From Bidens hawaiensis (Eukaryota > Streptophyta > Magnoliopsida > Asterales > Asteraceae): a stretch of 64,000 nt of DNA. Where the stretch lies: assembly GCA_021521415.1 (NCBI GenBank), contig JAIQDT010003853.1, positions 124,001 to 188,000 of the forward strand. Direction: 5' to 3'. The notes beneath the pieces were generated by a model. That model was given only the letters and a program-made list of their open reading frames with translations. It did no database searches and had not been told where the DNA came from. This document shows, one piece after another, positions 15,492 through 60,141 of this stretch; the stretch's first letter is position 1; each line of letters opens with the position of its first letter. Position numbers and translations under genes: made by a program.

Positions 15492-15603
15492 TTTTTTAAA
15501 AGTTGTATAGTTTTCCTATTTAAATGGTATAGTTTCCTATTTAAGTGGTTCACTTTATTTTAAAGTCTTCTCACAAAATAATTGGTTTTTTATTTGAATC
15601 ATT

Positions 15604-15605
<2 letters not shown>

Positions 15606-15651
<46 letters not shown>
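15606..15651. repeat. (TA)n microsatellite
   Basis: About 22 uninterrupted TA dinucleotides. Confidence 0.97.
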
Positions 15652-15653
<2 letters not shown>

Positions 15654-17873: not shown

Positions 17874-17875
17874 AT

Positions 17876-17887
17876 TGGTATCAGAGC
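17876..17887 (+). promoter_or_regulatory. primer binding site of A (initiator tRNA-Met)
   Basis: TGGTATCAGAGC, two bases after the LTR end; the standard copia minus-strand primer site. Confidence 0.95.
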
Positions 17888-18059
17888 CGATTGGCTCGAT
17901 TGTGAGGTTCGGGATTTCACACGAGTGTAGTTTCGTCTCGTTTGACCTATTCGCGAGACGTATTTTTGTTGGGATTGTGTTCTAATAGTGCTTGACAGTC
18001 ATTTTCAAGCCTTAGCATTGATCGGGAGCTTCTGGTTTGAAGAAAACAGATCTGGAAAA

Positions 18060-18440
18060 ACTTCCAGGTTCATCGGGCGAACTTGCTGATCTTCAGGCGA
18101 AGTTGTTAAATTCTGGCGAAGTTGCCGTCACTGGAGTTAGGGTTTTTGGCGAAGATATAAGGTTTGGCGAAGTTAACCACAACTTCGCTCAACTCATAAG
18201 TTCGCCTTAGCGAAGTTATCCGCAACTACGCTTCACACTTAAGTTCGCAGATTTCATAAGTTCGCCTTAGCGAAGTTATCCACAACTTCGCTTACTACCC
18301 AAGTTCGCTCAACTCATAAGTTCGCCTGAGCGAAGCGAAGTTAACTTTAACTTCGCCAATTCAAGCGAATTAAAGACCTCAGCGAAGTTCTCTATTCAGC
18401 GAAGTTGACCTTCAAGCGAAGTTATCCTTAACTTCGCCTA
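18060..18440 (+). repeat. GCGAAGTT/AACTTCGC repeat cluster in the leader of A
   Basis: More than a dozen copies or near-copies of GCGAAGTT and its complement, several arranged as facing pairs (for example GCGAAGTTATCCACAACTTCGC around 18270, with a 6-nt loop). It lies in the untranslated leader between PBS and gag. The same word fills the LTR and the region before ORF3. Confidence 0.9.
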
Positions 18441-18460
18441 CTGAGCTGTTTTAATATTTT

Positions 18461-18477
18461 CTTGTTTTTTTTTTCAG
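18461..18477 (+). promoter_or_regulatory. pyrimidine tract plus CAG before gag (candidate 3' splice site)
   Basis: CTTG followed by a long T run and CAG, 20 bases before the gag ATG; a second CAG follows at 18483-18486. Compare 21121-21136 and 26681-26693. Confidence 0.45.
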
Positions 18478-18497
18478 GTTTTTCAGGTTTTACAAGG

Positions 18498-24100: not shown

Positions 24101-24439
24101 TCAACTTGCGAAGCTGAATACATGGCAGCATCCAACTGCTGCTCTCAGGTTTTATGGATTCAGCAACAATTGCGCGACTATGGTCTGAATTTCTTACTCA
24201 CTCCTATTTTAATTGATAACACTGCCGCCATCTCAGTAATTAACAATCCCGTGAAGCACAGTAAAACTAAGCATATTGACATTCGTCATCACTTCATACG
24301 GGATTGTGCTGAGAAGAAACTGATCAAGATCGAAAAAGTTGATACACTTGAAAATTTTGCTGACTTGTTTACAAAAGCGTTTGATAAATCCAGATTTCAA
24401 AACCTAATTGAGCTAAATGGGATGATCAATCCCGAGTAA
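21092..24439 (+). CDS. pol: pol polyprotein of element A: protease, integrase, RT, RNase H
   Basis: The frame lies at -1 to gag and overlaps its end by 25 bases, with no ATG near the start; 21137, after a CAG, is a likely first coding base if spliced. Domains by residue from 21092: protease DSGC at 29-32; integrase HHCC (WHRRMGHIH, then CIACKKGK); catalytic D229, D292 and E328, matching D-X62-D-X35-E; RT from about residue 620 (GTKWVFKCKRD, QLDVKSAFLNG) with YVDD at 801-804; RNase H with TDSDYGG, CEAEYMA and KHIDIRHHF; end LNGMINPE. All catalytic motifs are present with no stop, as expected of an active copia pol. Confidence 0.95.
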   Translation: MVLGPKILTHCFIVQEQLNRAANNLWIVDSGCSRHMTGNKHLLQDLKPVQGARVSFAGESGGRITGRGTVSNGRMTLENVNFVEELKHNLLSVSQICDKEYTVHFTKNEAIVLKPGFHIPEEWIVMKAPRETNTYVMDMRSTEMATRESCLMTKASESESELWHRRMGHIHLRKMNFIVKNGLVMGVPLKSFNFEDKCIACKKGKQHKKSHLTKTINSIDGTLELLHMDLFGPVNVQSLGGTSYCLVITDDYSRYSWVYFLKTKDETTQMVKNLITKVENVMSKSVKFIRSDNGTEFKNFEMEIFCLQKGIEHQYSAPYTPQQNGVAERKNRTLIEGARTMLADSKLPVMFWAEAVATACYVLNRVLTVKRLGKTCYELMHGRKPNLCGLEPFGSPCSILKTNSKFGEVADEGILVGYVVGTPNRRVFNTTTCKVEVVCNTDITSYQPPKPSNGPAELFDYVKLFKSFNVPNLEIAEEDERVVTKMIFDEEEELVQHQMIEKSQPSTSNPIDTPAASTEDEFINPFHSQPETTIDEISSNLEDNLHVGAVPTTRIHKDHPLENVIGDVSSSVQTRSSLNEHTCVYTSIKDTGIMNECLYSCFISQIEPKNYQMALKDSSWVEAMQEELAQFEKMEVWTLVEKPKNVHAIGTKWVFKCKRDEKGIIVRNKARLVVKGFNQQEGIDYNEVFAPVARLEAIRLFLAFAAFKKMKVFQLDVKSAFLNGKVDEVVYVEQPPGFPDPDFPDHVYRLSKALYGLHQAPRAWYSTLSDYLLENGFERGLIDSTLFVKREGCDFLLVQVYVDDIIFAASRVSMCQDFEAVMKKRFEMSAMGELTFFLGLQVDQKKDGMFIHQTKYVHDVLKRFKMEDSSPYDTPICVNHKLGAESDGDADVDPTLYRAIIGSLMYLTASRPDIMFSVCLCARFQANPKESHMKGVKRILRYLKGKPKLGLWYPKGGDVELVAYTDSDYGGCNQSRKSTTGGCQFLGGRLVSWQCKKQTSVAISTCEAEYMAASNCCSQVLWIQQQLRDYGLNFLLTPILIDNTAAISVINNPVKHSKTKHIDIRHHFIRDCAEKKLIKIEKVDTLENFADLFTKAFDKSRFQNLIELNGMINPE
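21121..21136 (+). promoter_or_regulatory. candidate 3' splice site before pol of A
   Basis: TTGTTTTATTGTGCAG starts four bases after the gag TAA and ends just before the protease coding region. Nearly the same string precedes ORF3 at 26681-26693, and equivalent sites precede protease in B (47445-47456) and C (56837-56857). Splicing, rather than frameshifting alone, could supply pol; this is inference. Confidence 0.5.
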
Positions 24440-24454
24440 CCATGTCTTTGTTTT

Positions 24455-24460
<6 letters not shown>

Positions 24461-24503
<43 letters not shown>
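24461..24503 (+). repeat. poly(A) run, 43 nt
   Basis: Uninterrupted A run 22 bases after the pol stop codon. Confidence 0.95.
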
Positions 24504-24504
<1 letters not shown>

Positions 24505-25221
24505 AGTCTTTATTGCTTAAAATTAGTCGGTTACCTCGGTTTGATGGACATCTCCTCGGATATGTTTTGGTCCTTGTTTTCGACTTAGGAAATGAGGATA
24601 GCCATTAACCGGAAGACTGAAAGTAACTGGGGCAGTGTTGACATGTTTTTCTTTCAGTTGCTGAAAATTAGTCGGTCATTCTTAGTAAGAAGGACACATA
24701 CTTGCATGTGGTCGGTCCAGCTGATCCAATGGATCTTCAGGATAGCCGTTTACCTGATGACTTTGACATGATTGGGGCAATTGAATTCAAAACTTTATTT
24801 CGGGAAATGAAATTACTTTTCAAGTCTATTACTTCGTAAGAAGTTCTTTGCTGTGTTTAAAAGAAAATTGATCCAACCTTGGAAAATGATATATATACTG
24901 ACTATGTGTGCCTAACTAGTGAAGTTATTAAGCTTAAAAGGCTTTAGAACAGTCATTGTATGTCATGGTAATTTTAATGGTGCGTAAAAGTAGATGTGAT
25001 ACTAACTTAAATTTACTCGAATTTACGTGGAAACTCCTTAAGAGTTTTGTATGTCTTCATACATATCTTTTCGAAGGATAGGCAGAAAAGCGACTACCCA
25101 GTCATACACGAGCCCGTGAGTGTTCTGATTCCCGTGAAGAAAGCATTTCAAGACACTGCAGTGATCCAGATTCGGGACTTGCAGTAGTTTAGTACTCCGA
25201 TGAAAATTCTTATGTTTGATT

Positions 25222-25222
<1 letters not shown>

Positions 25223-25266
<44 letters not shown>
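25223..25266 (+). repeat. poly(A) run, 44 nt
   Basis: Second uninterrupted A run of nearly the same length. Both are preceded by TTTGATT-type sequence. Confidence 0.95.
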
Positions 25267-25272
<6 letters not shown>

Positions 25273-25856
25273 TATAATTTTTGTACTTATGAGAAATAGT
25301 GACAATAAACACGAGAACCAAAACGTCTCAAGATTTCTCAAGTTTGGAGTAAGAAGAAAACGGGAAGCAGACAACGAGTATCTACAAGTTAATCAGACAC
25401 TATGGGTCGAAGTCAATTCGGGGTGACTTGGGTATAGCCAAATACGCTTTGAGAATAGATAGAAGGCATCATTACCTCTGAGTTGTTGCCAACTTAAATT
25501 TTTGAGCTTAACTGAACCTTAATCCGTATCACAGAAACAATGAAAACCATTTAAGTTATTACATGCTTATAACCTGTTTCTCTATGTCATAATACAGCCA
25601 AACACGGATCCAAGTGACAGTCACATAGTTAGTATGATTCCTGTTCGGATCTTTTCTAAAACGTAGTGGTCCCTGACTAGACTGAAATTTGATCCCTTAT
25701 TTCGTTAAAATTTTATAAGTATTTTCTGTTTTTGTAGTTATATTTTTATTGTTGGTTGGTTACTGGGTCTTGATCATTTTTGTTTAACTTTTTTTGGTAA
25801 CTTATAAGGATATATTCAAGATTTTTCAAACTGAAAGGGCTGTTTTTGTAAATATC

Positions 25857-25949
25857 GGGCGAAGTTGTTGAATCGGCGAAGTTGTACTTAACTTCGCTTA
25901 GGCGAAGTTAAGAATAACTTCGCCTGAACCAACTCAGCCCTATAAAAGG
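25857..25949 (+). promoter_or_regulatory. hairpin-word cluster followed by TATA box upstream of ORF3
   Basis: Five GGCGAAGTT/AACTTCGCC words at 25858-25926 are followed by TATAAAAGG at 25941-25949. The order repeat cluster then TATA matches the LTR of A (cluster, then TATATATT at 17615) and the LTR region of element C (hairpin array, then TATTTAAGG at about 52521). This may be an internal promoter for ORF3; that is inference from layout only. Confidence 0.45.
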
Positions 25950-26322
25950 GATTTTAAACAGTAAATTTTTTATTATTAACTTTTTCCGGCGAACTTAACC
26001 TTAATTCCGGTTAACATCTCTTATATACACTTTCGATTTCGATCTTTTGTTCTTTGTTACTACTATACTGAGTGGTATGTGTTGTCGATTTCATCCTTTC
26101 ATTCTTTTTATAATTTTACCTCGGGTCGTCGAACACTCGAAGAATCCTCGAAACCAAGGTTTTCGACCTCACGTTACGTGTTCATGGACGACCTTTTCGT
26201 CCATACACCATTGAAATATGTTGTTCTTCATGTTTATATCGTCAAATCTGTCCGAAAACATCGGATTTCGACCTCTGAATCCGAACAGTCGCCGATTCTG
26301 TTTCAGGCGAAGTTATGGTTTT

Positions 26323-26519
26323 GGCGAAGTTAATCTCAACTTCGCCAGACGCTTAAGTTCGCCTAGGGCGAAGTTATCCACAACTTCGCCTGGCGAAGTT
26401 AACCACAACTTCGCCGTGGCGAAGTTATCATCAACTTCGCCTTGGCGAAGTTATCCACAACTTCGCCTTGGCGAACTTAACTGTAACTTCGCCTTGGCGA
26501 AGTTATCCTTATCTTCGCC
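26323..26519 (+). repeat. regular 26 bp hairpin array upstream of ORF3
   Basis: Hairpin units begin at 26323, 26367, 26392, 26418, 26444, 26470 and 26496; from 26392 they are spaced exactly 26 bp. The typical unit is GGCGAAGTT, a 6-nt loop (ATCCAC, AACCAC, ATCATC, AATCTC), then AACTTCGCC. Five of the seven have perfect 9 bp stems; the units at 26470 and 26496 each have one mismatch. Loop length is constant while loop sequence varies. The array sits about 180-370 bases before the ORF3 ATG. Confidence 0.92.
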
Positions 26520-26680
26520 TATATCCTTTTATTTTAACTGTTTTGTAGACGAATTTACTGATGAAGCGAAGTTGTTCCCAACTTCGCCTCAACTTTAATT
26601 TCGCCTGTGTATCTTACATCACAACTTCGCACTTGCTACACTGCGAACTTGTGAGTTACATAAAACGTCTCTAACTTGAT

Positions 26681-26693
26681 TTGTTTTGTGCAG
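26681..26693 (+). promoter_or_regulatory. candidate 3' splice site before ORF3 of A
   Basis: TTGTTTTGTGCAG ends two bases before the ORF3 ATG at 26696. It is the same string as the one before pol apart from a 3-base ATT difference, suggesting a spliced subgenomic mRNA for ORF3, as for envelope genes of retroviruses. Confidence 0.5.
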
Positions 26694-26695
26694 AT

Positions 26696-29473
26696 ATGGC
26701 TGCAGTTGGAGGAACTGGTGGTGATGATGGTGATGAGCAACGACAATTCTTTCCAGCTCATAACCAATACATTACTTTGGATCCTGACGCACGAGGCGTT
26801 GACGACTACAGGGAGATTATCACTTTTCTCCAGAGATCAAGGGTGTTTCACGCGATCACTAATACACTACCCATATCTCTGCCTAACATACAAGATTTCT
26901 GGCAGACGGTGTATTATGATTGCAGACCTGAGCCTCCGGTGATGCGAGCAACCGTCAATGGTCAAAACATACAGTTTTCTTCGGAAGACATTCGGTTGGC
27001 TCTGCAGTTCGGCAATGAGACACGAGACGACCCAACGGAGTTCGTAGCTCCTTTCCGTGACGGAGCATACTTGAGAATGGGTTATTCGGGTCCGCTGGGG
27101 GACTCGCAGAGGAGGAAAGGCTTTCTGCTGGACCAATGGCGTTTTCTGATGCACGTGTTAATTGTGTGCATGTCCGGCAGGAAAGCAGGAACAGACGGGA
27201 TGGGTGCGACGATGCAATCTGCCATGACGGCCCTGACTTACAATCGTCGTTACTCTTTTAGTCAGATGATTTTCTATGAGATTGATCGTCAGAGACGGGC
27301 GACGGCGCGAGAACGATTTATCATGTATCCGCGATTTCTTCAAATGATTATTAATCATGTCGCTCCGTCTCTACCGCAACGACGTCCTATTCGATATGTT
27401 GAGTGTGTTACAAAGCGTATTTTTGCTCAATGTAGGACGTCGAGCACTCGTAGCAACCCTGAACGCCGTCCAAGGCATACTCCACTTTTCGGGTATCTCA
27501 TCAACCCGGAGTATGTTCCTGCAGGAGGGGACGAGTTCAGGGATCCCCAACCACATCAGGCGGCAGCACCTCATGCTGTATCAGCTGCGCCTGTTGTATC
27601 TTCTGCTGCTGTGCCAGCTACTATTGCACAGACTATGTCCACGGCTGAAAACGTTGATCTGGATGCTGCTTTCAGTGGACACGGTTTGTTTGATATGGAT
27701 ATCTCGGGTCCTCAAGTTATGGATGCTTCAACAGCAGCTACTTCGGTAGCTGAATCCGAGTTAGATGAAACGTTTGCTGAGGCCAGACGGCTAATGGTGA
27801 CTCGTGAAAGGATTTCGGGTAAGAGGCCGAGAGTTGAGGAAGAGGAAGGAGATGAGGAAGAAGCGGTACAACTTGTGATGAGACGTTCGCGACGAGAACA
27901 ACTAGGTATGGCTACTGGAGCGGGGGAGACTTCAAGGCATGTACGTTTTGCTCCGCCTGTCTTGTCAGGTATGTCACTGCTTCCTACTACTGCACAGGTT
28001 ACGACTGTCGAAGCGTCAGCTCCAGCAGTGGTGTCTCTACCACCACAACCGTTTGATCCACCGGTGGTAGTCGCACGCTTCGTTGATTCGACTATCACAA
28101 CAATTGCAGGGTTACCAAGTGTACCACCTGCGGTCACTTCTGCTACTGATGTTCCACCAACTCCATTGCCTACTTCAGATGCTGAACGGATTACATCACT
28201 AGAGCGTATTGTTGCCGAACAGACTAAGACTATTGAACGCCTAGTGGAATCCAATCGACTACAAGCTGCCCTCCTGGTAGAACATGGCCGAATAATTGAT
28301 GCCTTCAAGGATTACTTGGCATCTCAGGGGGAGAAGACGTGTAGGGGCGATGAGTTGAGAACGAAAAGACGAGAAGATCATGACGATGATCCCAATGCAC
28401 CTTCGGGTGCAGGTGGTGAGCTGCCAAGAACCTCTCAGGCTCTTGGGGCTTCCACAACTGAGGGGGAGTCTACAGATGTAGCTGGTGATGTTGTTGTTGG
28501 TATGGGTGATGATGCTGATGTTGAGGACGTTATCGATGCTTTAAAGGATTTGGATGATGAGGAAGACGATGAGTTTATGGATGATGACGACGTGTTGCCC
28601 GTGGATGAGATAGAGAGGATTGGGGAAAAGATTAATGTGGAAAATGTGTTAGAAGAAGGTGAGATAATGGATGATGATGTTGAGCATGACATTCCCGAAG
28701 TGGAAAAGTCGGGTGTTGGTGATGAAACGGTGTTGGATGAGACGATGTGGGAAGAGCAGCCTAGATGGAAGGAAGAATATGCTCATTGGTTTGTCAAGAC
28801 CAAGAAGCCTGCTGTTCCAACCATGTTCAGAAAGAGCTACAATATTAAAGGGTATGCAGAGGCGAAAAAGGGGATTATTTGTTGGATCTATGATGCACAG
28901 CTCAAGTTGTTTGTGGTGAAGCGTTATGATGGCGTTCAATATTTCAAGAAGATGTTGAGATCGTTCAACACATTGCCTGAATGCGAAGTAAAAGATTTGG
29001 CCAGGTTGGGCCTGATAAACCGAAACAACGACAATATGGCTAGAATGATTGAGAAGATAATGTGGAAAGAAGGAGTAAAAGAAAAGAAGTTTGAGTTGCT
29101 AAAGCCACAAAAGGGAAAATTAGTGAAGGATACAGAGAGAGGTATGAGAGCAGATGGTAAACCGTGGATGGTAATGAAGTACAAACCAGTCCGATGTATC
29201 AAGGAGGTACCCATGAAAGCTATGCCTCGAGATGTGCTGAAAGATTTGAAATGGTGGTTTGTGGACTGTGAGACTGCAGAGGCAGTAATGGAGGACGAGG
29301 ATGAACAAGAACTGCTTCGGGTTTACGACCCGATGCATCTTGTTAACCTGTCGCAAGCTGATCTGGAAGTACTCAACAACAAGAAGATCTTCTACATTCC
29401 TGCTTGGAAGGATCAAGCTAGGAGATTTCAAAGTGTAGTGACAGTATGTGTGAGAGAAGGGGCGCACGCTTAG
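26696..29473 (+). CDS. third ORF of element A, 925 codons, function unknown
   Basis: Intact ORF between the post-pol region and the polypurine tract. Residues about 15-230 form a folded-looking, Trp/Arg-rich region (DYREIITFLQRSRVFHAIT, then LLDQWRFLMHVLIVCMSG and TALTYNRRYSFSQM). From memory, similar sequences accompany SIRE/Maximus-type elements in composite genomes. It continues with a Pro/Ala/Ser-rich region; a GKRPRVEEEE basic-then-acidic nuclear-signal-like motif near residue 375; a coiled coil about 498-545; a very acidic stretch about 590-670; and a C-terminal domain from about 685 rich in Lys and aromatics. No signal peptide or membrane-spanning helix is evident, so it does not look like an envelope despite its env-like position. 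Confidence 0.85.
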   Translation: MAAVGGTGGDDGDEQRQFFPAHNQYITLDPDARGVDDYREIITFLQRSRVFHAITNTLPISLPNIQDFWQTVYYDCRPEPPVMRATVNGQNIQFSSEDIRLALQFGNETRDDPTEFVAPFRDGAYLRMGYSGPLGDSQRRKGFLLDQWRFLMHVLIVCMSGRKAGTDGMGATMQSAMTALTYNRRYSFSQMIFYEIDRQRRATARERFIMYPRFLQMIINHVAPSLPQRRPIRYVECVTKRIFAQCRTSSTRSNPERRPRHTPLFGYLINPEYVPAGGDEFRDPQPHQAAAPHAVSAAPVVSSAAVPATIAQTMSTAENVDLDAAFSGHGLFDMDISGPQVMDASTAATSVAESELDETFAEARRLMVTRERISGKRPRVEEEEGDEEEAVQLVMRRSRREQLGMATGAGETSRHVRFAPPVLSGMSLLPTTAQVTTVEASAPAVVSLPPQPFDPPVVVARFVDSTITTIAGLPSVPPAVTSATDVPPTPLPTSDAERITSLERIVAEQTKTIERLVESNRLQAALLVEHGRIIDAFKDYLASQGEKTCRGDELRTKRREDHDDDPNAPSGAGGELPRTSQALGASTTEGESTDVAGDVVVGMGDDADVEDVIDALKDLDDEEDDEFMDDDDVLPVDEIERIGEKINVENVLEEGEIMDDDVEHDIPEVEKSGVGDETVLDETMWEEQPRWKEEYAHWFVKTKKPAVPTMFRKSYNIKGYAEAKKGIICWIYDAQLKLFVVKRYDGVQYFKKMLRSFNTLPECEVKDLARLGLINRNNDNMARMIEKIMWKEGVKEKKFELLKPQKGKLVKDTERGMRADGKPWMVMKYKPVRCIKEVPMKAMPRDVLKDLKWWFVDCETAEAVMEDEDEQELLRVYDPMHLVNLSQADLEVLNNKKIFYIPAWKDQARRFQSVVTVCVREGAHA

Positions 29474-29526
29474 AGATGCAGATTACAAGATTCGAGATTT
29501 GAAGATCAAGATATGAAGCTACTGCC

Positions 29527-29535
29527 AAGGGGGAG
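29527..29535 (+). promoter_or_regulatory. polypurine tract of A
   Basis: AAGGGGGAG two bases before the 3' LTR; plus-strand primer for reverse transcription. Confidence 0.93.
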
Positions 29536-29537
29536 TC

Positions 29538-30019
29538 TGTTGGTGCATGTTTGTCAGTAGTTCATAGTCTTGTAATTGTAATCGAGTCTGTATTGTAATT
29601 GTGTATTTGATTATGTTTTAGATTGTGTAACTAGCAAAGTTGTCAACAAGTTTGCTCAGGCGAACTTGTTGAACAAGCGAAGTTGTCAACAAGTTCGCTC
29701 AGGCGAACTTGTTGAATATGCGAAGTTACAGACAACTTCGCCTGTGGCGAAGTTGTCGTGTATATATTCACTGTTTCAGCCGAAACGTGAAAAGGTTGTT
29801 CGTTTAGGGTTTCAGTCAAGTGTTCGAGTTTAAGCAGACGTGTTTGCTAGTTCCAGAGTCTGTATTAGTGACTACGAGTCACGTGTTTGGTTATTAATAT
29901 AACGTGTTTGATTCATTGCTCGTGTTCTTCTATATCTACACTCGTAACCTACCTACGCAGGGATTCCGCACCTGCGTTGTTAGAGAATATCCCGTGTACG
30001 ATCCGTCCAGGAACCTACA
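29538..30019 (+). repeat. 3' LTR of element A
   Basis: Identical in my reading to 17392-17873, at a constant offset of 12,146. The TATA-like TATATATT is at 29761-29768. Followed by the AGTGT duplication at 30020-30024. Confidence 0.97.
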
Positions 30020-47382: not shown

Positions 47383-47802
47383 GTGATTGAAGAAGTGCAA
47401 GCTTCTTTGGCTTGTAGTTCACTTCAAAACGCACCAAAATGTATCTTTAATGTGCAGGAACATTCCACAGGGCAAACTGACATATGGTATATGGACAGTG
47501 GATGTTCAAGACACATGACATGCAATAAGAAGACATTGATTAATTATGAAGAAAAGTATGAAGGACCCATTATATTTGGCAGTGATGAGAATGGTGGAAA
47601 GATGGTTGGTAGAGGAATCTTGACAAATGGAAAAATATCTTTTGATAATGTATTACATGTTGAAGGGCTTCAATACAACCTGTTGAGCATCTCACAAGTT
47701 TCTAACAAGGGTTATAAAGTGGGATTTGATGATTCACACTACTATATATTGAAGCCTGAGTTTGTGATTCTTCTTGATATGATTATGATGATGGATCCTT
47801 GA
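47383..47802 (+). pseudogene. protease of B
   Basis: Reads WYMDSGCSRHMT at about 47488-47523, GRGILTNG and NLLSISQVSNKGY, the full copia protease pattern. The catalytic Asp-Ser-Gly is intact. The CAG at 47454-47456 after ATCTTTAATGTG aligns with the pre-pol CAG of A. Ends at a stop within the protease-integrase linker. Confidence 0.85.
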
Positions 47803-47833
47803 AATGGGAACCTTTATGAGCTAAGAATGAAAG

Positions 47834-48773
47834 ATGCAATATCAAGAGGAGGAACATGCTTTGTTTCAAAGATCTGAAAATGTATCAAGGTTGTCGCATA
47901 GGAAATTGTGTCATGTTAATCTAAAGAACATGAACAAACTTGTAAAAGGTGAGCATATAATTGGTTTTCCTATAAGGGAGTTCAAGCTAGAAGACCAATG
48001 TTCCAAGTATTGGAAGCAAGAGGTTTCGTTTAGTGATAAGTGATGATTATTCAAGGTTCACATGGGTATATTTCTTGTCTACAAAGGATGAAACTGTTGA
48101 GTTAATCAAAGGTTGCATTAGAATAATGGAGAATTAGTTTGAAAAGAGGGTTAGAGTAATCAGAAGTGATAATGACACATAGTTCAAGAATGGGGTAATG
48201 ACTGAATTTTGTACTGCAAAGGGAATATTTCAACAGTTTGGTGTTCCTAGAACTCCTGCACAAAATGGGGTTGCAGAAAGAAGAAACAAAATATTAATAG
48301 AATCTACAACAACCATGATTGCAGATGCATTTACGCCTGTCTCCTTTTGGGCTGAGGCTACCAACGCAGCTTGTTATGTTAAAAGTTGAGGGCTTCTCAA
48401 CAAAAGACATTACAAAACTCCTTATGAGATTTTGTTTAACAGAAAGCCCTATGTCAAGTTTCTTAAACCCTTTGGTTTCAAATTTTACTTGTTGAACATC
48501 AAGGACTACTTGAACAAGTTTCAGGCTAAATCATTGGATTGGTTCTTTGTTGGATATTCATCACAATTAAAAGCTTATAGAGTTTATGTCAAAAATCATT
48601 TAAGTGTGATTAAAATCTCTGACATTATATTTAATGAAAACCATTTCAACACTGTTAATGGTCATAGCTGTTGTTTGACCTTAAAAAGCTCATTCAGTCA
48701 TTCAAGATATACCCTGAGGACATTAAAGAAAGTGCTTATCAAACTAGTGTTCCTGAAGCAAATGCTGAAATGA
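47834..48773 (+). pseudogene. integrase of B, with internal deletion
   Basis: The zinc-binding segment (LSHRKLCHVNLKNMNKL) is followed by a jump at about 48010-48030: the CxxC finger end and the first catalytic Asp block are missing. The core resumes with SDDYSRFTWV, VIRSDN and TPAQNGVAERRNK (48240-48290), which holds the catalytic Glu. A stop replaces the Gly-Thr-Glu region after the second Asp. Confidence 0.82.
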
Positions 48774-49229
48774 AAATTGATTTGGACTAATTGTGGTCCA
48801 AAGTTGCTAATGATGACACTGAATTTACGTTTCAAAGGAAGATTTCAACTATCAATGAAGAAATTGAGCAAAATGTTGAGACTCGGGAATTAGATCAAAA
48901 TGTAACTACTTAAGATCCAGTTGAATCTCCTGTTGAACAAATTCAACATCATAGTCAAACTATGTTTGAAGTTTGAATCTTTATTTGAAAATCTTGATAT
49001 TTCAAATAATGTTGCTTCAACATCCAACACTTCAAATCAAAACAATGATGGACCTGATTTAAATGTTGATGAATCTGATTTGAATGTTACATATTTAAAC
49101 CCTGATCAAACTATAAGTTCAATCATCTAAACCTCTCCAGTTTAAAGAGATCATTTTCTTGACAATATCATCGATGACCAGCATGAAAGGGTTACCAGAA
49201 ATGAATCTAAATCTACAAATATATGTCTA

Positions 49230-50210
49230 TATTTCAGCTTTCTATCTCAAATTGAACCAAAGAACATTGTTCAAGCATTGAAAGACAGTAGGGTAGAAGC
49301 GATGCAGGATGAGTTGGCATAGTTCAAAGATATGAAAGTCTGGGAACTGGTAGACAAGCCAAGAAGAAAATATCTATAGGAACTAAATGGGTTTTCAGGA
49401 ATAAGAGAGATAAGATAGGGATAGTGGTGAAAAACAAGGCTAGACTTGTAGCCCTTGGATGTTTACAAGAAGAGGGTATTGCTTTTGAAGAAGTATTTGC
49501 GCCAGTTGCAAGATTAGAAGCAATTAGAATCTTTCTAGCATATGCAGCACCAAAGAACATTAAGGTTACCAGTTGGATGTCAAATTTGCTTTCTTGAATG
49601 TAAAGATAGATGAGAAGGTTTATGTGACTCAACCTCCTGGCTTTGAAGACCCTGAGTTTCCTAACAAGGTGTATAAGCTTAGCAAAGCCTTGTATGTTTT
49701 GTATCAAGCTCCAAGAGCTTGGTATGATGAGTTATCAAACCATCTTCTTGCCAATGGTTTCAACAGAGGAGCTATAGACAAGACCTTATTCAATATAAAG
49801 AAATGAAGAGACTTATTGTTGGTACAAGTGCATATTGATGACATCAGTTTTGGATATACTGATGAAGACATGTGTATGAAATTTGAGGGTGTGATGAAGT
49901 CAAAATATGTCATGAGTTCAATGGGAGAGACGAATTTCTTTCTTGGATTGCACGTTCTACATAAAAAGGATGGAATATTCATTAAGCAATCCAAGTATGT
50001 AAATGAAATCTTGACAAAGTTCAAATGTCATGATGTGAAGACAGCCTCAACTCCTATGGACACACATGAGAAAATGATTACTAATGAAAAAGGGGAGCAT
50101 GTAGACCAACATGAGTACAGAGCCAAGATAGGATCATTAATGTATCTTAACGCATTCATGTCTGACATCATGTTTGATGTATGTGTATGTGCAAGATATT
50201 AAGCCAATCC
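49230..50210 (+). pseudogene. reverse transcriptase of B
   Basis: Fragments in several frames: [13 protein letters not shown] near 49280, GTKWVFR near 49380, [19 protein letters not shown] (49570-49625), [15 protein letters not shown], and the catalytic box as HIDD (49831-49842), where copia normally has YVDD, then MSSMGETNFFLGL. A stop at 49804-49806 precedes the catalytic box. Confidence 0.88.
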
Positions 50211-50779
50211 GAAAGTTGCTCATATGATTGCTGTGAAAAGGATCTTCAGATATCTAAAGGGAAAGCCAGACTTGGGAATTTGGTAACCAAATAATAGATC
50301 ATTTGATCTACTTGCATACACAGATAGTGACTATGATGACTGCAACATGAGTCAAAATTCTACCTTAGAAGGACGTCGATTATTGGGTAATAGACTGGTG
50401 TCTTGGAAATGTAAGAAGCAAACTATAGTATCCATTTCAACTGTTGAAGCTGAATACATTAATGTATGTGCCTGCTATGCACAAGCTCTCTGAATTCAGA
50501 ATAACTTGCTGGACTATGGTTTGAATTTTTCAGAATACCCCTATTCTCATAGACAACATTGCTGCTATGTTTATTGCAAGAAATCCTGTGTAACACTCTA
50601 AGACCAAGCATATTGAAACTAGACATCATTTTATCAGAGACTGTAATGAGAAAGGCTTGATAGAAATGAAAGAGTTAAGACTAGTGATAACTTGGCAGAC
50701 GTTCACCAAGCCACTAGATAAAACTAGTTTCAACTTTCTGTTAAAGGCTTTTGGCATGATAAACTCAGATGACGTTTAA
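50211..50779 (+). pseudogene. RNase H and end of pol of B
   Basis: Decayed copies of the copia RNase H segments (AYTDSDYDDC, SISTVEAEYI, KTKHIETRHHFIRDC) and the terminal LLKAFGMI motif before TAA at 50777-50779. Confidence 0.8.
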
Positions 50780-52140
50780 TTGATGAAATATGCTTATTAT
50801 GCTAACTGGATATCTTTAGCAAAGTCTTAAGAGTTCCTATGTGTTTGTGTGGTTATGTGAATGATTGCTATGTGCTTAACTAATTATCTGTAAATGATGT
50901 GAATGTGATGTTTGAGTATGATGTTTTGTTGTGCTTAATGATCAATTAGAATGATTAATCTGGTTGCTTTATAATGATTGTAGTGTGATAGTTTTGACAT
51001 GATTATGCATTCTGCACCTGCATAACAAGTAGGTTTACACATGTGTACATTGAAATGAATATTTTAAATGCTTGCTTGCTTGCATTTGTTCAACTTTGAA
51101 ACTGATGATCATGTAATTGATTTTGTATGAAGATTGAATTGCTTTATGCATCAAAATTGTCTCTTTTCTTGAAACTGAAATGAGTGAATGATAAATCAAA
51201 GTGGTTTCCTAAAGAGTCAAATGTTTTTGATCTAAAGCAAAACTTTTGGTATACTTTAGATACGATAAGATTATTCAGTTATATGCTTTATAGAAGCTTA
51301 AAAGGGTTTTCAAATAAAAATTTGATCCACCCTTTTGGGAAATGATAGGTATATTGGTTATTTACACTGTATATGTGGATTTATTAGGCTAAAAAGGCTA
51401 TTAGTGCAGCCATTAATATGTATGTTAACTTTCCATGATGTGTAAAAGTTGAAGAAATATGCATCTCTCAATATACATCTCTCTAAATGATAGACAGAAA
51501 TGTAATTATCAAGTCATACACAAGCCTGTTGGTGTTTGGTAAACCAAAATGAAATATTTTTAGATATGACAAAGAACAAATTGTGCAAAAAGATTACATA
51601 TCACCCAGAAAGTTGATAAAAATCCAAACTTGAGGGATAAAACTAGAACTACAATGGTGGGGCATCATTATAAGTCCTAAACACCTTGAATGTATGGCAT
51701 GTAAGTCCGAACTGCGTGGCATGTAAGTCCAACATTCAACTTCAAAAGTTTGAAGTTTTGAAATGAAAATTTATTACCAAAATTAAAATAATTATGTTCT
51801 ATCATCAAAAGAAATTTTGACCAAATATCAGGGGGTTGAAGTCAATTTGGGGTGATCTGGAGAAAGCTAAATAAGCTTTGAGAAGATATATGAGTCGTCA
51901 TAAGTCAATAAGTGTTGTCCATTTATGTCGTATGCAAAAATTGAAAACAAATACATATCAATGATGTAATAAAATTCAAGCTAAGTTTCAAAAATACATG
52001 CTATTAACATATCTAATATGTCATAATGATGTTGAGATTAAAATATTGAAAGGTGACTTAGGCTATGTGATCCCTTCTTGAGATCTTTTCATAAAAAGAT
52101 ATGTTTTGTATTGACAAACTGAAATTTGATCTCATACACC
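50780..52140 (+). other. post-pol untranslated region of B, conserved with A
   Basis: No ORF. Blocks matching the A post-pol region occur in the same order: AAGTCATACACAAGCCTG near 51511 (A near 25100), GAAGTCAATTTGGGGTGA near 51839 (A near 25407), AGCTTTGAGAAGATA near 51871 (A near 25449), and GAGATCTTTTC near 52079 with CTGAAATTTGATCTC near 52119 (A near 25640 and 25682). Confidence 0.75.
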
Positions 52141-52280
52141 ACATGTACCATATGTACTTAAGCTTTAGTTAGTGCACGGTTTTGTCGTATCGAGTATTTA
52201 TAACTTATCGGTTGTAAATTATTATTATTATTATAAAGTTAATGGTATTTATGGAAAATCAAGTAGTTCGTTATGTATAG

Positions 52281-52507
52281 GCTAATTCGTTAAGGATATT
52301 TAACGAATTAGCCAGTTTGTTATATGTAATATCCATTTGTTAAGGATGCTTAACGAATGGACTGTAATTCGTTATGTTTGTATCCCATTCGTCATGGAAT
52401 GTTGACGAATGGGGGCATAACGAATCACCGATTCGTTATGCGTTCCTTATTTGTTATGTAAGTTAACGAACTGGAGCCAATTCGTTACGGGATGTGTAAC
52501 GAATTGG
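52281..52507 (+). repeat. array of five hairpins with changing stems in the LTR of C
   Basis: Hairpins: 52281-52312 (stem GCTAATTCGTTAA, 13 bp, loop 6); 52333-52360 (CCATTTGTTAA, 11 bp with one G-T pair, loop 6); 52384-52413 (CCCATTCGTCA, 11 bp, loop 8); 52416-52440 (CATAACGAATC, 11 bp, loop 3); 52477-52507 (CCAATTCGTTAC, 12 bp, loop 7). Stem sequences differ between units while pairing is kept. A TATA-like TATTTAAGG follows at about 52521. Confidence 0.93.
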
Positions 52508-52753
52508 TCTCCATCTTCTATTTAAGGCGTGTTCATGCCTTGTTAATTTAAGGAATTGAGATAATTATACCATACCTCTGCTCAAGTTCTCTCTCGTTCA
52601 ATTCTTCATAACGTTTATTAATATTTTACCTATTACAATTACTATTTATACTATATACCTAACTAAGAACATATCATAAACTAGATCCGAAGATTAAATG
52701 ATCTAATACGATTATGAATTGATTAGTTCTGTGAGATCTGAGTTATTTTCAAG

Positions 52754-52765
52754 TGCTATCAGAGC
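52754..52765 (+). promoter_or_regulatory. primer binding site of C
   Basis: TGCTATCAGAGC, one mismatch from the initiator tRNA-Met complement used by A and D, two bases after the LTR end at 52751. Confidence 0.75.
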
Positions 52766-53199: not shown

Positions 53200-53570
53200 A
53201 TTCCTTATAGCTAATTTGTTAAACATAAGTCTTAATTCATTATAATTTCTCAACTGATTCGTGCCACGTGGATAGTTTGTTACAACTGAATAACAACCTA
53301 GTTCGTTATTCACTGTTGCGAATTCGTGCTCTTTGATTCGTTATTGATTCGTTACTTTAATTCGTCTTTTATTCGTTACTTTGATTCGTCATTGATTCGT
53401 TACTAACTCATAATTGTTTCATTACCCATTCGTTACATTTGATTCGTTCCTGATTCGTCAAGATACTCTTCCTAATTCGTCATTCATACCTCACTTGGTT
53501 CGTTAAGTTACTATTCCCAATTCGTTATCCATACTTCACTCAGTTCGTTAAGTTTACTGTTCCTAATTCG
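53200..53570 (+). repeat. TTCGTTA/TTCGTCA word cluster in the leader of C
   Basis: About twenty copies of TTCGTTA, TTCGTCA or close variants between PBS and gag, the position occupied by the GCGAAGTT cluster in A. They are mostly in one orientation, unlike the paired units in the LTR. Confidence 0.85.
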
Positions 53571-53675
53571 TTACTGAAATTACAATTTTAACCCTAAAAG
53601 TTTGGATTGTTGTTAAATTTGAACTTTTTAATTAAATTTTTTGGTTTTTATGCGTTGCCATCTCAGAACATACTT

Positions 53676-54799
53676 ATGCAACAAATGCTACTCCTCGATG
53701 CGGAAATTGGATCCCATTCAAAATGTCCACGACTGATGAAATATAGTGATTTTGCCAAGTGGGAACCACGTTTTCGTGCACATCTTGGTTCTGTGCATCC
53801 TGACTGTTCTCATTGCCTTGATGATGTTTATACAGTTTCGATGTTTGGTTGTGAAACACTGGGTTTTTCTCTAAAGGCTTTCTCTCAATATTCGCAAGAG
53901 GAAAAGAAAGCGTTAGAGATTGAGACCAAAGCTTACACAACCCTTACTATGGCTTTACCTGATAACATATTTCATCAAGTTGGAAGTATTAAAATATGTG
54001 CTTCATTGTTTCAACACATTAAAATGAGAAGCATGGGAAACACAGAAGAGAGTAAGAAAGTGATGTTAAGTTTCAATTTCGAAACTTTAACTTACTAAAG
54101 GGTGAGACTGTTGAAGAGATGCTTACTAGTTTTAATCACTTGATTGCTGAAATGAAAAAACTGAAGATGGAACCTTCTGAATCTGATAAGATTGATACTG
54201 TAAACAATGCTTTACCGGATTCGTATTCAACATTCCTGACGGTGTTGAAAAAAAATAATTATTTGAAAAAAGCAGATATAACTGCTTCAGAATTCATGCA
54301 AAAGGTTGAAGCAAGAGAATATGATTTGAAGTGTCAAAAATCGTCAAAAGAAATTCAAGTTCCATCCTTTTATGGAGGTAGTATGCCATTAAGTAGCACC
54401 GCTTCTCCGATCACTGCATTTCTTACTCAGAATGCAAATGAGGGAACTTCAACTTATAGTGATCCAAATGTATGCTTTATGGCATCTGGATTCACTGATA
54501 ACTCTGGAGGTTCTGGAACATCTACTACAGCAAATCACTCATCTGCACCACCAAACGTGAACATGAAAGAAGCTGAACATAATTTTTCCTTTCTGTGTGC
54601 TTTTATCACCTCATATGCTTTATGGCATCTGGATTCACTGATAACCGATGAATATTATGACCAAATCGATCATGATGATTTGGAACTTATGGATCATAAG
54701 TGGAACATGGCAATGATTGTGAGAACAGTAAAGAAATTCATGCAAAGAACTGTCAAAGATCTACCATCGTTGAACAAGAGAGTTGGTTTTGATAAATGA
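53676..54799 (+). pseudogene. gag of C, N-terminal part
   Basis: From ATG 53676, after CTCAG at 53663-53667. It resembles A gag (CPRLMKYSDFAKWEPRFRAHL; TMALPDNIFHQVG), with a frameshift near 54098-54119, then MKKLKMEPSESDKI and WNMAMIVRTVKKFM, which matches WQMAMIVRRVKRFM of A. A TGA at 54797-54799 stops it just before the zinc knuckle. Confidence 0.85.
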
Positions 54800-56836
54800 A
54801 AACTCAAGTGCTATAAATGTCAAGAATTTGGCCATTTTGCAAAGAGTGTGACAAACCAAAGAAAGAGTACAATGGACCTCGGAGCCAAGATAGAAGTTCT
54901 GGGAAAACGGGTAATGATGTTGATATGCCTTCTGGTAGTAAACCTTCTGCTTCAGGATCACAAGCACTTCTTTCTGCTGCTGATGGGACTGACTGGATAC
55001 AAAGATTGTTGTGCAACAATAATCAAGTGAACTTGGCTATGTTTGAGATGAATGAAAGATTTCAAGACACAAGTGGGAATGAGCTATCATCTGACAATGA
55101 CACTGAATCTGATTCTGATTATTCGTGTTACATGCAACCAACTTCTTTCGCATGCATGGAAAAGATCGATGAGTTTAGTTCTTCTTCTTTTTCTTCTTCT
55201 GTTAATTTATTTGAAAATGTGCCTTGTGTTCATTGTGAAACTATTAAGCCTAGGTTAGAATCGTTGAAAGAGCCTAATGATCTATTGGTGAAATAAATTG
55301 CTTCTCTCATGGATACTTATAGACAATCATTAGAATCTCAAATAAGATCTAGGGAGAAAATAGAAGCATTGTCTATTAGTAACCATGACTTGAAAGCTGA
55401 ATTGTCTGTTAAAATGACAATTAACGATCAACAATTCAAGAGATTTGGGAACACCAAACTAATATAACAGAACTTGAGAATGAGGTTCTTGACTTGAAAA
55501 TCAAGTTGAGCAAGTTTCGAAACTCATCATTTTTGCTAAATGAAATTATTGAGGTGACTGGTAAGCAAAAAGATTCTAAAAAGATTGTAGGTTTTGTTAA
55601 AGTATCACCACCTTTTCATAATGATTATACTGCAAATCCTTTTGCTGGAAAAGAGGAAGTTTTTGTTAATGAACCTACTGTTGAGATAAAACCTAAAGTG
55701 GTTAAAAATGATAATTTGAATGCCCAATCTTCATCTCAAAAACCTCATATTCAAAGTAACAAAATCTTCGTTGAAAATGCTGAAAAACAATCATTGAGGA
55801 TGTGTTTGAACCTGAAGTTATACAAAAGGGCCAGAACATTCCAACTTAAATCACATTTTATGTGAACCTTATGAATTTGAGGAGGCGGTGTATGGTTCAA
55901 GTACATCTCATGTGAAAAAGGAGAAACCGGTTAAAGTTAAGGCTATGAAATCAGAAAAGCCAAAGAATTCTGATAAGGATTTGATGCGTTTTGCCAATCC
56001 TGTTTCTTCCAAGTCTTTTACTGGTCGTGTGTATAAGTTGAAATGGATTAGTAAGGTGTTCACTGAGAAAGACATTCCATTTAATCAATCCTGAATTGAT
56101 TGAAAGTGTCTTTCAAAATGTAACTTCTAAGATTCAAGATCTTGAACAAAAGTTACTATAAGACATCAAATGTAATAGATCCTTTGATAAAATCCAAATA
56201 ATTGTTAAAATCTGCTAAGAATGTTCAATTTGGTAAATCAAATTGAACTGATACTTTACAGAGTTTTTCAAACTGTTCAAACCTTGATTTCTACATGAAA
56301 AGGAAATTTGTGACATTTGATGACTTGGACAAAGTTCCCATTGCTAGTGTTTTTTATCCATTTATGTTGCACAAGTTTATGCTAAACTATCATGTGAACG
56401 TGTTCACCTGAGAACGTGTTTTCTCTGTGGTGAATAAAGTCACGTAGTCAGAAATTGTGGACTGAAGAAGTCTCAAAATCTTCATCCTTTTGTCAAGGAA
56501 CAATCCAAACACGTTCCTGTGATTAAGGAGATTTTGAAGAGACAACTGTCTTTTGATGATGAAACCCATATTATGTTTTCTGATGTGAATCCTCGAAAGG
56601 TGATTCATGTTAATGAAAATGCAAGTAATTTAAAGTCCAAATTTGTTCCCATGGAACCTATTTGCAAGAACGTGAATACAAATGTAGTTAAAGCTGCATA
56701 CTTGAGATGAAAGTCGAAACGCCCTTTGACTTATTCACAAGCAGCTGAACCACATTTGGATTCATTAAACATTAACATTTCAAGTGAAACTCAAAAGGTG
56801 CCCAAGACTAAGGCCTGGGCTGCCTTTTTGAACTAA
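54800..56836 (+). pseudogene. gag of C, C-terminal part
   Basis: The zinc knuckle KCYKCQEFGHFAK (54805-54845) loses its last Cys to a frameshift. An acidic Ser/Asp-rich region, coiled-coil fragments, the motif VSPPFHNDYT near 55600-55630, a second knuckle remnant (CFLCGE) near 56418 and a terminal Trp-Ala-Ala-Phe-Leu-Asn before TAA at 56834-56836 follow in several frames. Confidence 0.75.
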
Positions 56837-56887
56837 TCTTTTTTCATTCATGTTCAGAGTTCATCCAAGACTGTTTCTGGTGAAAAC

Positions 56888-57770
56888 TTGATGATGGATA
56901 GTGGATGCTCTTGTCATATTACCGGCAACATTAACCTCTTAACAAATATCAAGAATATACAAGGAGGGTATGTTGCGTTTGCGGGTAATTTGGGTGGAAT
57001 GATCACTAAGGAAGGTGATGTGTCAAATGGGAGTATCACCTTTGAAAAGGTTAATTATTGTGACAAAGTAGATCACAACTTGTTGAGTGTGTCACAAATC
57101 TTTGATAAGAAATACACAAGAGTATTTAATGATAAGGAGTGCAAAAAAATACTGAAACCGGGATACGTCATTCCCGAGGATATGGTAGTTATGCGATCTC
57201 CTCGATCAAACGATATTTATGTGTTAAACATGACTTATAAGGTATCCACTTCTGTAGAAACGTGTTTTGTTTCTAAGGCAACAGAAAAAGACGATTCTGT
57301 GGCACAGAAGAATGGGTCATATTCATGTCAGGAAGATGAATTATCTTATGGCTAATGACTTGGTTGATGGTGTTTCCTTGAAACATTTTAAATTATCTGA
57401 CCACTGTATTTCTTGTAAAAAGAGCAAACAGAAGCAGAAGTCACACACTTCTAAGTTAATCAATACCATTGATACTCCACTGGAACGACTTCATATGGAT
57501 TTGTTTGAGCCTGTGAATCGTGCGAGTATTGCTGGTGATTGGTATTGTTTAGTTGTCACTAATGACTATTCAAGATACTCATGGGTGTTATTTATGAGTT
57601 CAAAATATAAAACACCCATTCTGGTTCAAAATTTAATCACTAAGATCGAATCATTGTACAAATTGAAAGTGAGATGTATGCGTAGTGATAATGGTACGGA
57701 GTTCAAAAATACTGTACTGGATTTCTTTTACATTCAGAAATGAATTCATCGAGAATACAGTGCTCCATAT
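56888..57770 (+). pseudogene. protease and integrase N-terminal half of C, truncated by D
   Basis: Protease: MMDSGCSCHITGN at 56891-56930, GDVSNGSI and NLLSVSQIFDKKY, with the catalytic triplet intact. After a frameshift near 57300 the integrase zinc domain follows (LWHRRMGHIHVRKMNYLM; CISCKKSK), then LHMDLFEPV with the first catalytic Asp, TNDYSRYSWV, and MRSDNGTEFK with the second. A TGA at 57741-57743 and then the D insertion end it before the catalytic Glu. The CAG at 56855-56857 after a TTTTTTCATTCATGTT tract aligns with the pre-pol site of A. Confidence 0.88.
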
Positions 57771-58344
57771 TGTAACATCCTAAAATTTATAATGTTGAAT
57801 AAAGAAAGTTATGTTAGTGATTTCGCGTTTTTAATTATTAATATCGAGTAGGAGCGGGTCATGGACTTGGATTAATTGAGATAGGATAAATGAGAATGGG
57901 ATTTCAGGGATATAAATACCCCCAAAATCCCAAAATATCTCATTTCTCACCAAACTCCACACATACTCCACACACTCCTCAAAACACACACACACTAACC
58001 GATCGAGATTCGAAGCCGAGACCCGAGATTTTGTTGATAGATCTGAGTTGGTAAGGTAAGAACAAATCCCCCAAAGCTAATATTACTGAAAATGGTTAGG
58101 ATTGGATGGGTTAACCGGACCCGAAACCCAAACTGCCCAAATCGGACCCCTAAAACGTCGATTTTAGGCCGATTTGATGGTTGGGATTTGTAGGCGCTGA
58201 TCATACGATTCCGTGGGTACCAAAATCGAGTTATTTGGCTAAGAAACGAAGGATTTATGGGCAAACAGATCTGCAGCGCGATAACTTCGCCTGCAAGATC
58301 AAGTTCGCCTGATGAACTTCGCCTTCAAGCGTAACTTCGCCTTC

Positions 58345-58712
58345 AAGCGTAACTTCGCCTAAGGTATAACTTCGCCTACGGCCAAGTTCGCCTAAGGTAT
58401 AACTTCGCCTGAAGCCAAGTTCGCCTAAGGTATAACTTCGCCTGAAGCCAAGTTCGCCTAAGGTTTAACTTCGCCTGAAGCCAAGTTCGCCTAAGGTATA
58501 ACTTCGCCTGAAGCCAAGTTCGCCTAAGGTATAACTTCGCCTGAAGCCAAGTTCGCCTAAGGTTTAACTTCGCCTGAAGCCACGTTCGCCTAAGGTTTAA
58601 CTTCGCCTGAAGCCAAGTTTGCCTAAGGTATAACTTCGCCTGAAGCCAAGTTCGCCTAAGGTTTAACTTCGCCTGAAGCCAAGTTCGCCTAAGGTTTAAC
58701 TTCGCCTGAAGT
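58345..58712 (+). repeat. 33 bp minisatellite with AACTTCGCC word
   Basis: About ten copies; the consensus unit combines AACTTCGCCTGAAGCC with AAGTTCGCCTAAGGTAT. Each unit has AACTTCGCC and AAGTTCGCC in the same orientation, so unlike A these are direct rather than facing words. The word is the same as in the arrays of the unrelated copia element A. Confidence 0.93.
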
Positions 58713-59094
58713 GAAGTTCGTTTATAAAATAAATTAAAAACCTAATGGAAAATGTGTTAAGGCAGTTATCGAAAATAAAATTTTTCCAAGCCAGGGGCTC
58801 TGCCCCTTGGACCCCGCTAGGGGCTGCTGCCCCTAGAACCCCGCTGCCCCCGAACCCCCGTTCGTTGTGGGTCATATATAGATAGAAATACAAAACGAGT
58901 AGTAGTAGTTAATTGATATGTGTAAATATTATACAGTTAGCCGAGCCCAGTTAAAGAAAGGAATTACGATCAACGGCGAGCGTAACAGGATCCAGGTGAG
59001 TTTCTAGCCCCATTCCTTGTTATGTTTTCGGGGCTGTGTGCATACTTGATGTGTTGTTAATACATTTATCCTAAGTGATAAGTGTATGCTATAT

Positions 59095-59288
59095 GTGATA
59101 TATGTGATATGTATGAATGATTGCTTGACGGTTCGTGAACGATCTTCGGATATTGCACGTACTGTCAGGTTGTAACGTTATAAAGCCATATGTGATATAT
59201 GTGATATGTATGAATGATTGCTTGATGGTTCGTGAACGATCTTCGGATATTGCACGTACTGTCAGGTTGTAACGTTATAAATATGGCA
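59095..59288 (+). repeat. 97 bp tandem duplication in D LTR
   Basis: Two copies with one or few differences (CTTGACGG vs CTTGATGG at 59124 and 59221), each containing GGTTCGTGAACGATCTTCGG. Confidence 0.92.
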
Positions 59289-59464
59289 AGTATGATATGT
59301 ATGTTTATGTGTATGAACGTAATAAAGTTAATAAAAGAAGGAAATGACGGTTGTATGGTTGTATGGTTACGAAAAGGGTACCGAGCCCTAATAATACTCG
59401 AGGTATGATGTATGGTTGTATGGTAACGAAGAGGGAATCGAACCCTACTAATATTCGAAAACAA

Positions 59465-59656
59465 GGGACCAGACCCTTATAATATCTGTGATGTTAGGGA
59501 CCAGACCCTTATAATATCTGTGATGTTAGGGACCAGACCCTTACAATATCTGTGAGGATAGGGACCAGACCCTCATAATATCTGTGATGTTAGGGACCAG
59601 ACCCTTATAATATCTGTGATGTTAGGGACCAGACCCTTATAATATCTGTGAGGTTA
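59465..59656 (+). repeat. six 32 bp tandem repeats in D LTR
   Basis: Units start at 59465, 59497, 59529, 59561, 59593 and 59625; the unit begins GGGACCAGACCCTTATAATA. Each contains the short palindrome GGGACCAGACCC-like arms. Confidence 0.95.
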
Positions 59657-60141
59657 TAGGGCGAAAGGCTCTTAAAAACGTATGATTATGAATGTAAAGA
59701 AAGTATGTAAGTAAGAAAGAAAGTATGTAAGTAAGAATGAAGGTATGAGTACTTATGTGTGTATGAAAGAAAGTTATGAGGTTAAGTACGTATGTATGTA
59801 ATAAGGTATTGTATGGTATTGTATGATTATATAGAACTCACTCAGCGTAGCTGACTTTTAGTATGCACGCAGGTGAGTAGGATGAGACAGCTGGCTTGAG
59901 TGGAGGACACATGGCAGAAGACTAAAGCCTGGCATCTGAAGATCTGATATGTTTTATAAGTTATGTTTTGATTTTAAAGGACAAGAGGAATGTTTTAAGA
60001 CATGATTATGAATTGATATGTAATGTTTTATGAAAGTTTTATATTCCGCGTAAAGTTTTTAATTAACTCTGATATTTAGAACAGTGTTTATGAGTAAATC
60101 CAACACGAAAGTAGGGTTACCGGTGACGGGGCCTTACAAGT

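Follow-up and report, generated by a model that had tools for sequence, protein, structure and literature searches.

What keeps a row of short hairpins in front of the TATA-like box of a copia retrotransposon: the structure itself, the words from which the stems are built, or the way in which such repeats mutate? The question is raised by one element, C, in a 64,000-nucleotide stretch of the Bidens hawaiensis genome (the window). In it lie three copia elements of the Sirevirus type (A, C and a third, 'up') together with gypsy elements. C is inserted in the linker of 'up', whose pol occupies 47446-50770, and its own pol is interrupted by a nested Ty3/gypsy element, beyond which it continues at L032 3560-5938. 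The two LTRs of that gypsy element (57771-60138 and L032 1228-3572) are 97.6% identical, so its insertion into C was fairly recent relative to most C-family copies. The best named relative of the C gag, also from Bidens, has 64% identity. The parts of C are as follows.

52167 to 52751, forward strand: 5' LTR of C, 585 bp, delimited by genome copies
52264 to 52507, no strand assigned: U3 word array of C, 15 TTYGTYA words over two strands, ten of which pair into five stems
52519 to 52525, forward strand: TATA-like box TATTTAA, 15 bases downstream of the last word
52757 to 52765, forward strand: primer binding site of C, TATCAGAGC, from the sequence match and genome copies
53215 to 53573, forward strand: leader array of C, TTCGTTA with TTTGTTA and TTCGTCA forms, on the sense strand only
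53637 to 54862, forward strand: gag region of C, with frame breaks and one intact frame at 54056-54799
56852 to 57770, forward strand: first part of the C pol, reaching the integrase core (residues 28-333 of the A pol), interrupted by the nested Ty3/gypsy

The array belongs to the U3 part of the LTR, because genome copies begin at 52167 and the LTR end is then followed by the primer site. We searched the 3.47-Gb assembly with 52140-52700 and scored 40 of 3,251 candidates; 35/40 scored places begin at query positions 26-31. In the 29 copies fetched besides C (84-92% identical), TG stands at the position of 52167 in 27, TGGTATCAGAGC follows the LTR end in 13 and, with one or two changes, in six more, and a polypurine-like G-run lies ahead of the LTR in 11. 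C itself deviates at the first base, reading AGTTAGTGCACGG where most copies have TGTTAGTGCA. Two C-family LTRs elsewhere (L012 and L021) have a polypurine run before and a primer site after, as if common to two tandem elements. An LTR start at 51835, after AGGGGGT, was considered and rejected, since genome copies start at 52167; the stretch 51300-52160 is repeated elsewhere and is the linker of the third element, the site of the C insertion. A reading of the array as the ORF3 promoter of the upstream element was likewise rejected, as the array lies inside the repeated LTR.

The initial annotation described a row of stems at 52281-52507 directly upstream of a TATA-like box. Both are there: the box is the TATTTAA at 52519, and the stems number five, of 11-14 bp, four perfect and one with a single mismatch, some of them one or two bases longer than first quoted.

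52280 to 52313, no strand assigned: stem 1, 14 bp
52332 to 52361, no strand assigned: stem 2, 13 bp, with one T-G mismatch
52384 to 52413, no strand assigned: stem 3, 11 bp, with the word TTCGTCA
52415 to 52441, no strand assigned: stem 4, 12 bp, of opposite polarity, with the loop on the TTCG side
52477 to 52507, no strand assigned: stem 5, 12 bp

The row does not arise from base composition. Perfect stems of at least 10 bp number four in 52264-52510, against a mean of 0.006 and a maximum of one in 1,000 dinucleotide shuffles, and five are found when one mismatch is allowed (mean 0.08, maximum two in 1,000 shuffles); the suggestion that random sequence would give similar numbers thus fails. 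With the TA microsatellite at 15600-15665 excluded, the C array, at four stems per 247 bases, has the highest stem density of the window. Nor do related families lack it: an array is present in every C-clade U3 piece read, which comprise 29 family copies, four gag relatives and one flanking relative.

Strong folding of the array (z-scores of -11.2 as RNA and -12.8 as DNA) suits a reading in which the hairpins themselves are selected, whether as single-stranded DNA or in the U3 portion of the genomic RNA, for example for RNA stability, for packaging or as a structure kept though it feeds small RNAs. The palindromes of maize Sireviruses, as described in PMC5311732 and PMC10760457, are small-RNA hotspots, which would fit. 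We regard this reading as unlikely, and the covariation that should speak for it is divided. Between families, in seven sequences (C, one family copy and five relatives), 11/62 pairs changed on both sides against a shuffled mean of 6.4, a value reached by 1/500 shuffles, and two-sided cells number 25 against 9.8, reached by 0/500, although these shuffles overstate independence because the sequences are few and related. When partners are slid, at most three pairs are recovered, and an earlier set of eight sequences gave nine pairs against 4.6. Between units of the array the signal is weaker, with 5/14 pairs differing on both sides (reached by 10/500 shuffles). Among the 30 copies of the C family, in contrast, covariation is at chance, with 3/62 pairs two-sided against a shuffled mean of 3.9 and four two-sided changed cells against 190 one-sided, though many of the changes counted are expected to be younger than the insertions. 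One of the five between-family measures, the number of further standard pair types, is even lower than in shuffles (21 against 24.9). The earlier proposal that pairing is kept while sequence changes therefore holds between families, weakly between units and not among family copies.

Conservation within the family separates the word from the stem. We counted differences from the majority over the 30 copies, with CpG positions excluded. Words inside stems differ at 1.7% of positions (25/1493), stem bases outside words at 5.3% (84/1580), loops at 5.2% (42/810), unpaired words at 5.7% (46/808) and other spacer at 9.5% (191/2006). Stem words exceed both loops (p 0.002) and unpaired words (p 0.007) in conservation, whereas in these 30 copies stem bases outside words show no such advantage over loops (p 0.53), and the advantage of unpaired words over spacer is not significant (p 0.12). 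Decay is seen at the CpG positions of stems (10.7%). This pattern speaks for paired words being recognised rather than for pairing alone, and it counts against selection on the hairpins as such. So does the leader of C, which is present in the RNA and carries the words without structure (folding z +1.0).

We therefore prefer, with moderate confidence, to read the array as a promoter-proximal cis-regulatory cassette: short sites, mostly in inverted pairs, that would be read by a sequence-specific, probably dimeric and probably host-encoded DNA-binding protein affecting transcription started at the TATA box some 15 bases further downstream. The distance from last word to TATA-like box is nearly fixed. 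Across 35 C-clade sequences (C, its 29 copies and five relatives) it is 15 bases in 27, 14 in three and 13 in one, and in four of the 35 the script detected none. In four promoters of the window, those of the A LTR, the A pre-ORF3 region, the C LTR and the gypsy LTR, no more than about 20 bases separate the end of the array from a TATA-like box. Position, near-fixed TATA spacing, the use of a single word by each element at the sites we read and conservation of the paired words are observed; we infer protein binding, the host origin of the protein, an effect on transcription and a separate ORF3 transcript. No known factor was matched to the words. One feature sits uneasily with a protein that reads the word alone: between families, stem positions outside the word covary although they share no sequence, which such a protein would not need.

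Another explanation invokes mutation only. The symmetry could be a by-product of tandem or inverted duplication of the word, followed by correction of one arm against the other through template switching during reverse transcription, with no selection on structure. Arm matches outside the word total 27 bases in the true pairing against a mean of 12 over all 120 pairings, and only the true one reaches 27; the flanks are unlike from stem to stem; three units of about 50 bases, each a word and a stem, align like tandem duplicates; and the deficit of intermediate pair types noted above is also as expected. We find this account decidedly improbable, as it does not sit well with an array length (52258-52512) that stays at 246-256 bases in 29/29 other copies, with stem words conserved beyond loops or with the nearly fixed spacing to the TATA box.

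The C array is one of four sites in a larger arrangement of word arrays, and its counterparts in A and in the nested gypsy element are as follows.

17392 to 17873, forward strand: 5' LTR of A, with stems at 17497-17611 and a TATA-like box at 17615
18096 to 18438, no strand assigned: leader array of A, words on both strands
25858 to 25924, no strand assigned: A array preceding ORF3, followed by TATAAAA at 25941
26306 to 26588, no strand assigned: second A array, between the TATAAAA box (25941) and ORF3, words on both strands
29538 to 30019, forward strand: 3' LTR of A, 482/482 identical to the 5' LTR
57771 to 60138, forward strand: LTR of the nested Ty3/gypsy, with a word array at 58283-58720 and TATAAAA directly downstream at 58723

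The claims that A and C use different words and that they keep the same architecture around them were both borne out, the latter at the LTR, leader and pre-ORF3 sites. TTCGTTA occurs 27 times in the window, ten times in the C array and ten in the C leader, and GGCGAAGTT 42 times, 27 in non-coding parts of A, 15 in the Ty3/gypsy LTR and none in C. Counts of TTCGTYA in C on the two strands are 6 and 6 in the LTR, 13 and 0 in the leader and 10 and 8 ahead of ORF3, where the arrays of C itself lie at L032 7811-8080 and 8569-8786 and four palindromes contain the word. A C-family copy in L031 also has the C word ahead of its ORF3 (arrays at 2574-2821 and 3308-3547, ORF3 at 3745). The A word STTCGCC, repeated at the LTR, leader and pre-ORF3 sites of A, was not found in the LTR, leader or pre-ORF3 (L032) stretches of C or in the pre-ORF3 stretch of the L031 copy, and A has one stray TTCGTTA, at 25701. 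A single word likewise runs across the LTR, leader and ORF3 sites of the C relative in L034-L036. A third lineage, defined by pol and linker and read at eight pre-ORF3 places, has a third word, TTCGAGTA, found 29 times in sense and once reversed, with at least three copies in 5/8 pieces and a single copy in each of the other three. TTCG is common to all three words (TTCGTTA, STTCGCC and TTCGAGTA), a likeness noticed post hoc. The flank of the window carries two more arrays (L033 3051-3700 and 7051-7750), of ACCTACA and of GGGTAAC/ACAATAA.

With the same word standing before ORF3 and in the leaders, the transcription units of the element could share one regulator. TATAAAA stands behind the pre-ORF3 array of A (25858-25947), which suggests that the ORF3 of A may have its own promoter. 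Directly behind the first pre-ORF3 array of two C-family copies no TATA-like match was found; L032 has TATAAT there. ORF3 of A (26675-29473, 932 codons) had no match in a Pfam search; three relatives were found, in Smallanthus, Mikania and Helianthus, all daisy-family genomes. Six peptide patterns from the A pol found no relative in IMG/VR. A (17392-30019) is flanked by AGTGT on both outer sides. It is apparently very young and also abundant, given its identical LTRs and a genome search with its LTR in which the 40 scored of 4,259 candidates are 99-100% identical, the two LTRs of A itself included.

How fast do the words change? The initial annotation envisaged a fast-evolving recognition system, in which an element protein (ORF3 or gag) would fit its word as a key fits a lock, or an escape from host silencing, and proposed comparing word type with gag and ORF3 sequence. 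In the cases read, word type does follow lineage: the A word has a partial match in a relative with 76% gag identity, the C word is shared by C and seven relatives, and the third lineage has the third word. ORF3, moreover, has diverged to 26-39% identity between A and a C-family copy. A fast tempo is nevertheless unsupported. In a gag search with 150 scored of 49,119 candidates (70-82% identical apart from C), six leaders were read, picked among the less similar relatives (70-75%), along with U3 pieces of four of them, and TTCGTYA is present in all six leaders and all four U3 pieces. The LTR, leader and pre-ORF3 region of a seventh relative, which lies in the flank and has 67% gag identity, carry it as well, so that the C word is kept in 8/8 C-clade leaders read (C and seven relatives, gag 67-75%). 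Turnover is therefore slow, given a word that stays constant over gag divergence down to 67%. For the A relative, which lies in the opposite flank, gag identity is 76% over 444 residues and 44-51% past these; its leader has AACTTCG 12 times and STTCGCC once, which is the partial match referred to.

An element-encoded reader is further weakened by the nested Ty3/gypsy element, a member of another superfamily. Its U3 carries, at 58283-58720, a 33-base tandem array of the A word, GGCGAAGTT reversed, in 15 copies just upstream of TATAAAA, and the 3' copy of this LTR, in L032, carries the array as well. The gypsy array has a 15-mer in common with the A ORF3 array and at most eight bases in common with the C LTR or leader. 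An A word in such an LTR points to a host reader, as in the cis-regulatory reading, and leaves the fast-evolving account (element protein or escape from silencing), in our view, very improbable, even with word type following lineage.

The leaders raise a separate question, that of strand. In C-clade gag leaders the words TTCGTTA, TTTGTTA and TTCGTCA occur 237 times in sense and three times reversed in 18 copies (the 18/30 loci at which the script located the primer site), and TTCG exceeds CGAA by 91 to 0 in the gag leaders of six C-clade relatives (L077-L082). A general rule of sense-only words was rejected, however, because the A leader and the second pre-ORF3 arrays are two-stranded: STTCGCC stands 5 and 5 in the A leader, which folds (z -6.9); the second pre-ORF3 array of A folds too (z -15.7); and in its C-family counterpart TTCG and CGAA number 7 and 2 (L032) and 10 and 7 (L031). 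It is tempting to imagine that each lineage has a word of its own with two grammars: inverted pairs within the promoter, and, in the transcribed leader, direct repeats on the sense strand only. A transcription factor would read the word in DNA, and in the leader it would be read a second time in its RNA form (UUCGUUA). Replacement of one word by another would then be needed at all four sites, while words would remain shareable with unrelated Ty3/gypsy elements. This scheme seems to us quite unlikely, and tandem duplication of one sense copy could also have produced the sense-only leaders.

The arrangement has a precedent in the RM boxes of Sireviruses, which Bousios et al. (2010, PMC2829016) describe as copies of a palindromic motif in the LTR upstream of the TATA box and again upstream of ENV, the ORF after pol, with one consensus per element and a CGG-CCG core in all except Tnd-1. 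The C array is best seen as a variant of this layout, because position and layout match and the core does not. As in RM boxes, multiple palindromic copies precede the TATA-like box of the LTR, and others precede the ORF that follows pol (L031, L032). Unlike the RM boxes described there, the words here (TTCGTTA, STTCGCC and TTCGAGTA) have no CGG-CCG core, in C two separate words, together with flanks that vary between stems, make up the symmetry, and the C word also fills the leader from primer site to gag. RM boxes comprise at least eight near-identical palindromes; C has five in the LTR and four ahead of ORF3, with differing flanks. The RM of Tnd-1 (ACAATCGATTGT in Table 3 of PMC2829016) is similarly palindromic, without CGG-CCG and with a central CG, but it is another word, found in the LTR only of an element without ENV. 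A 2016 report, as cited in PMC5311732 and PMC10760457, describes rapidly evolving palindrome clusters in the regulatory part of LTRs; the copia motif given from it, CACCGGACNNNGTCCGGTG, is unlike the words here. An open-access literature search found no paper joining Sirevirus, Asteraceae, long terminal repeat and motif, and a search with four 9-letter words listed matches that are unrelated by title.

Other Sirevirus hallmarks were compared in A and in the C family. A has the Ty1/copia order, with integrase before reverse transcriptase (Pfam Retrotran_gag_2, then Pol_BBD, gag_pre-integrs, rve and RVT_2; the same search of A named neither protease nor RNase H), and the gag and pol parts of C follow in the same order. 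At the Sirevirus junction CA/ATTGG-TATCAGAGC, A reads ACA-ATTGG-TATCAGAGC, an exact match, whereas the C-family LTR end is followed by AG-TGGTATCAGAGC, with the primer site kept and the intervening bases different. The Sirevirus polypurine octamer AGGGGGAG occurs in A at 29528, starting 10 bases ahead of the 3' LTR, and twice more within ORF3 (28326 and 28461), while the attachment of A reads TC/TG against AT/TG in Sireviruses; the 11/29 C-family copies with a G-run have it with TGYT before the LTR and not the octamer. On these tests alone we do not assign C to Sirevirus.

These findings extend the RM boxes of Sireviruses to words without a CGG-CCG core. The unexpected parts are the sense-only gag leaders of the C clade and a word common to a copia and a gypsy element. 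One genome that holds three lineages with three words, each in many copies (40 scored of 3,251, 4,259 and 7,669 first-look candidates for C, A and the third lineage, respectively), is a natural experiment in which what the word does can be told apart from what the palindrome does.
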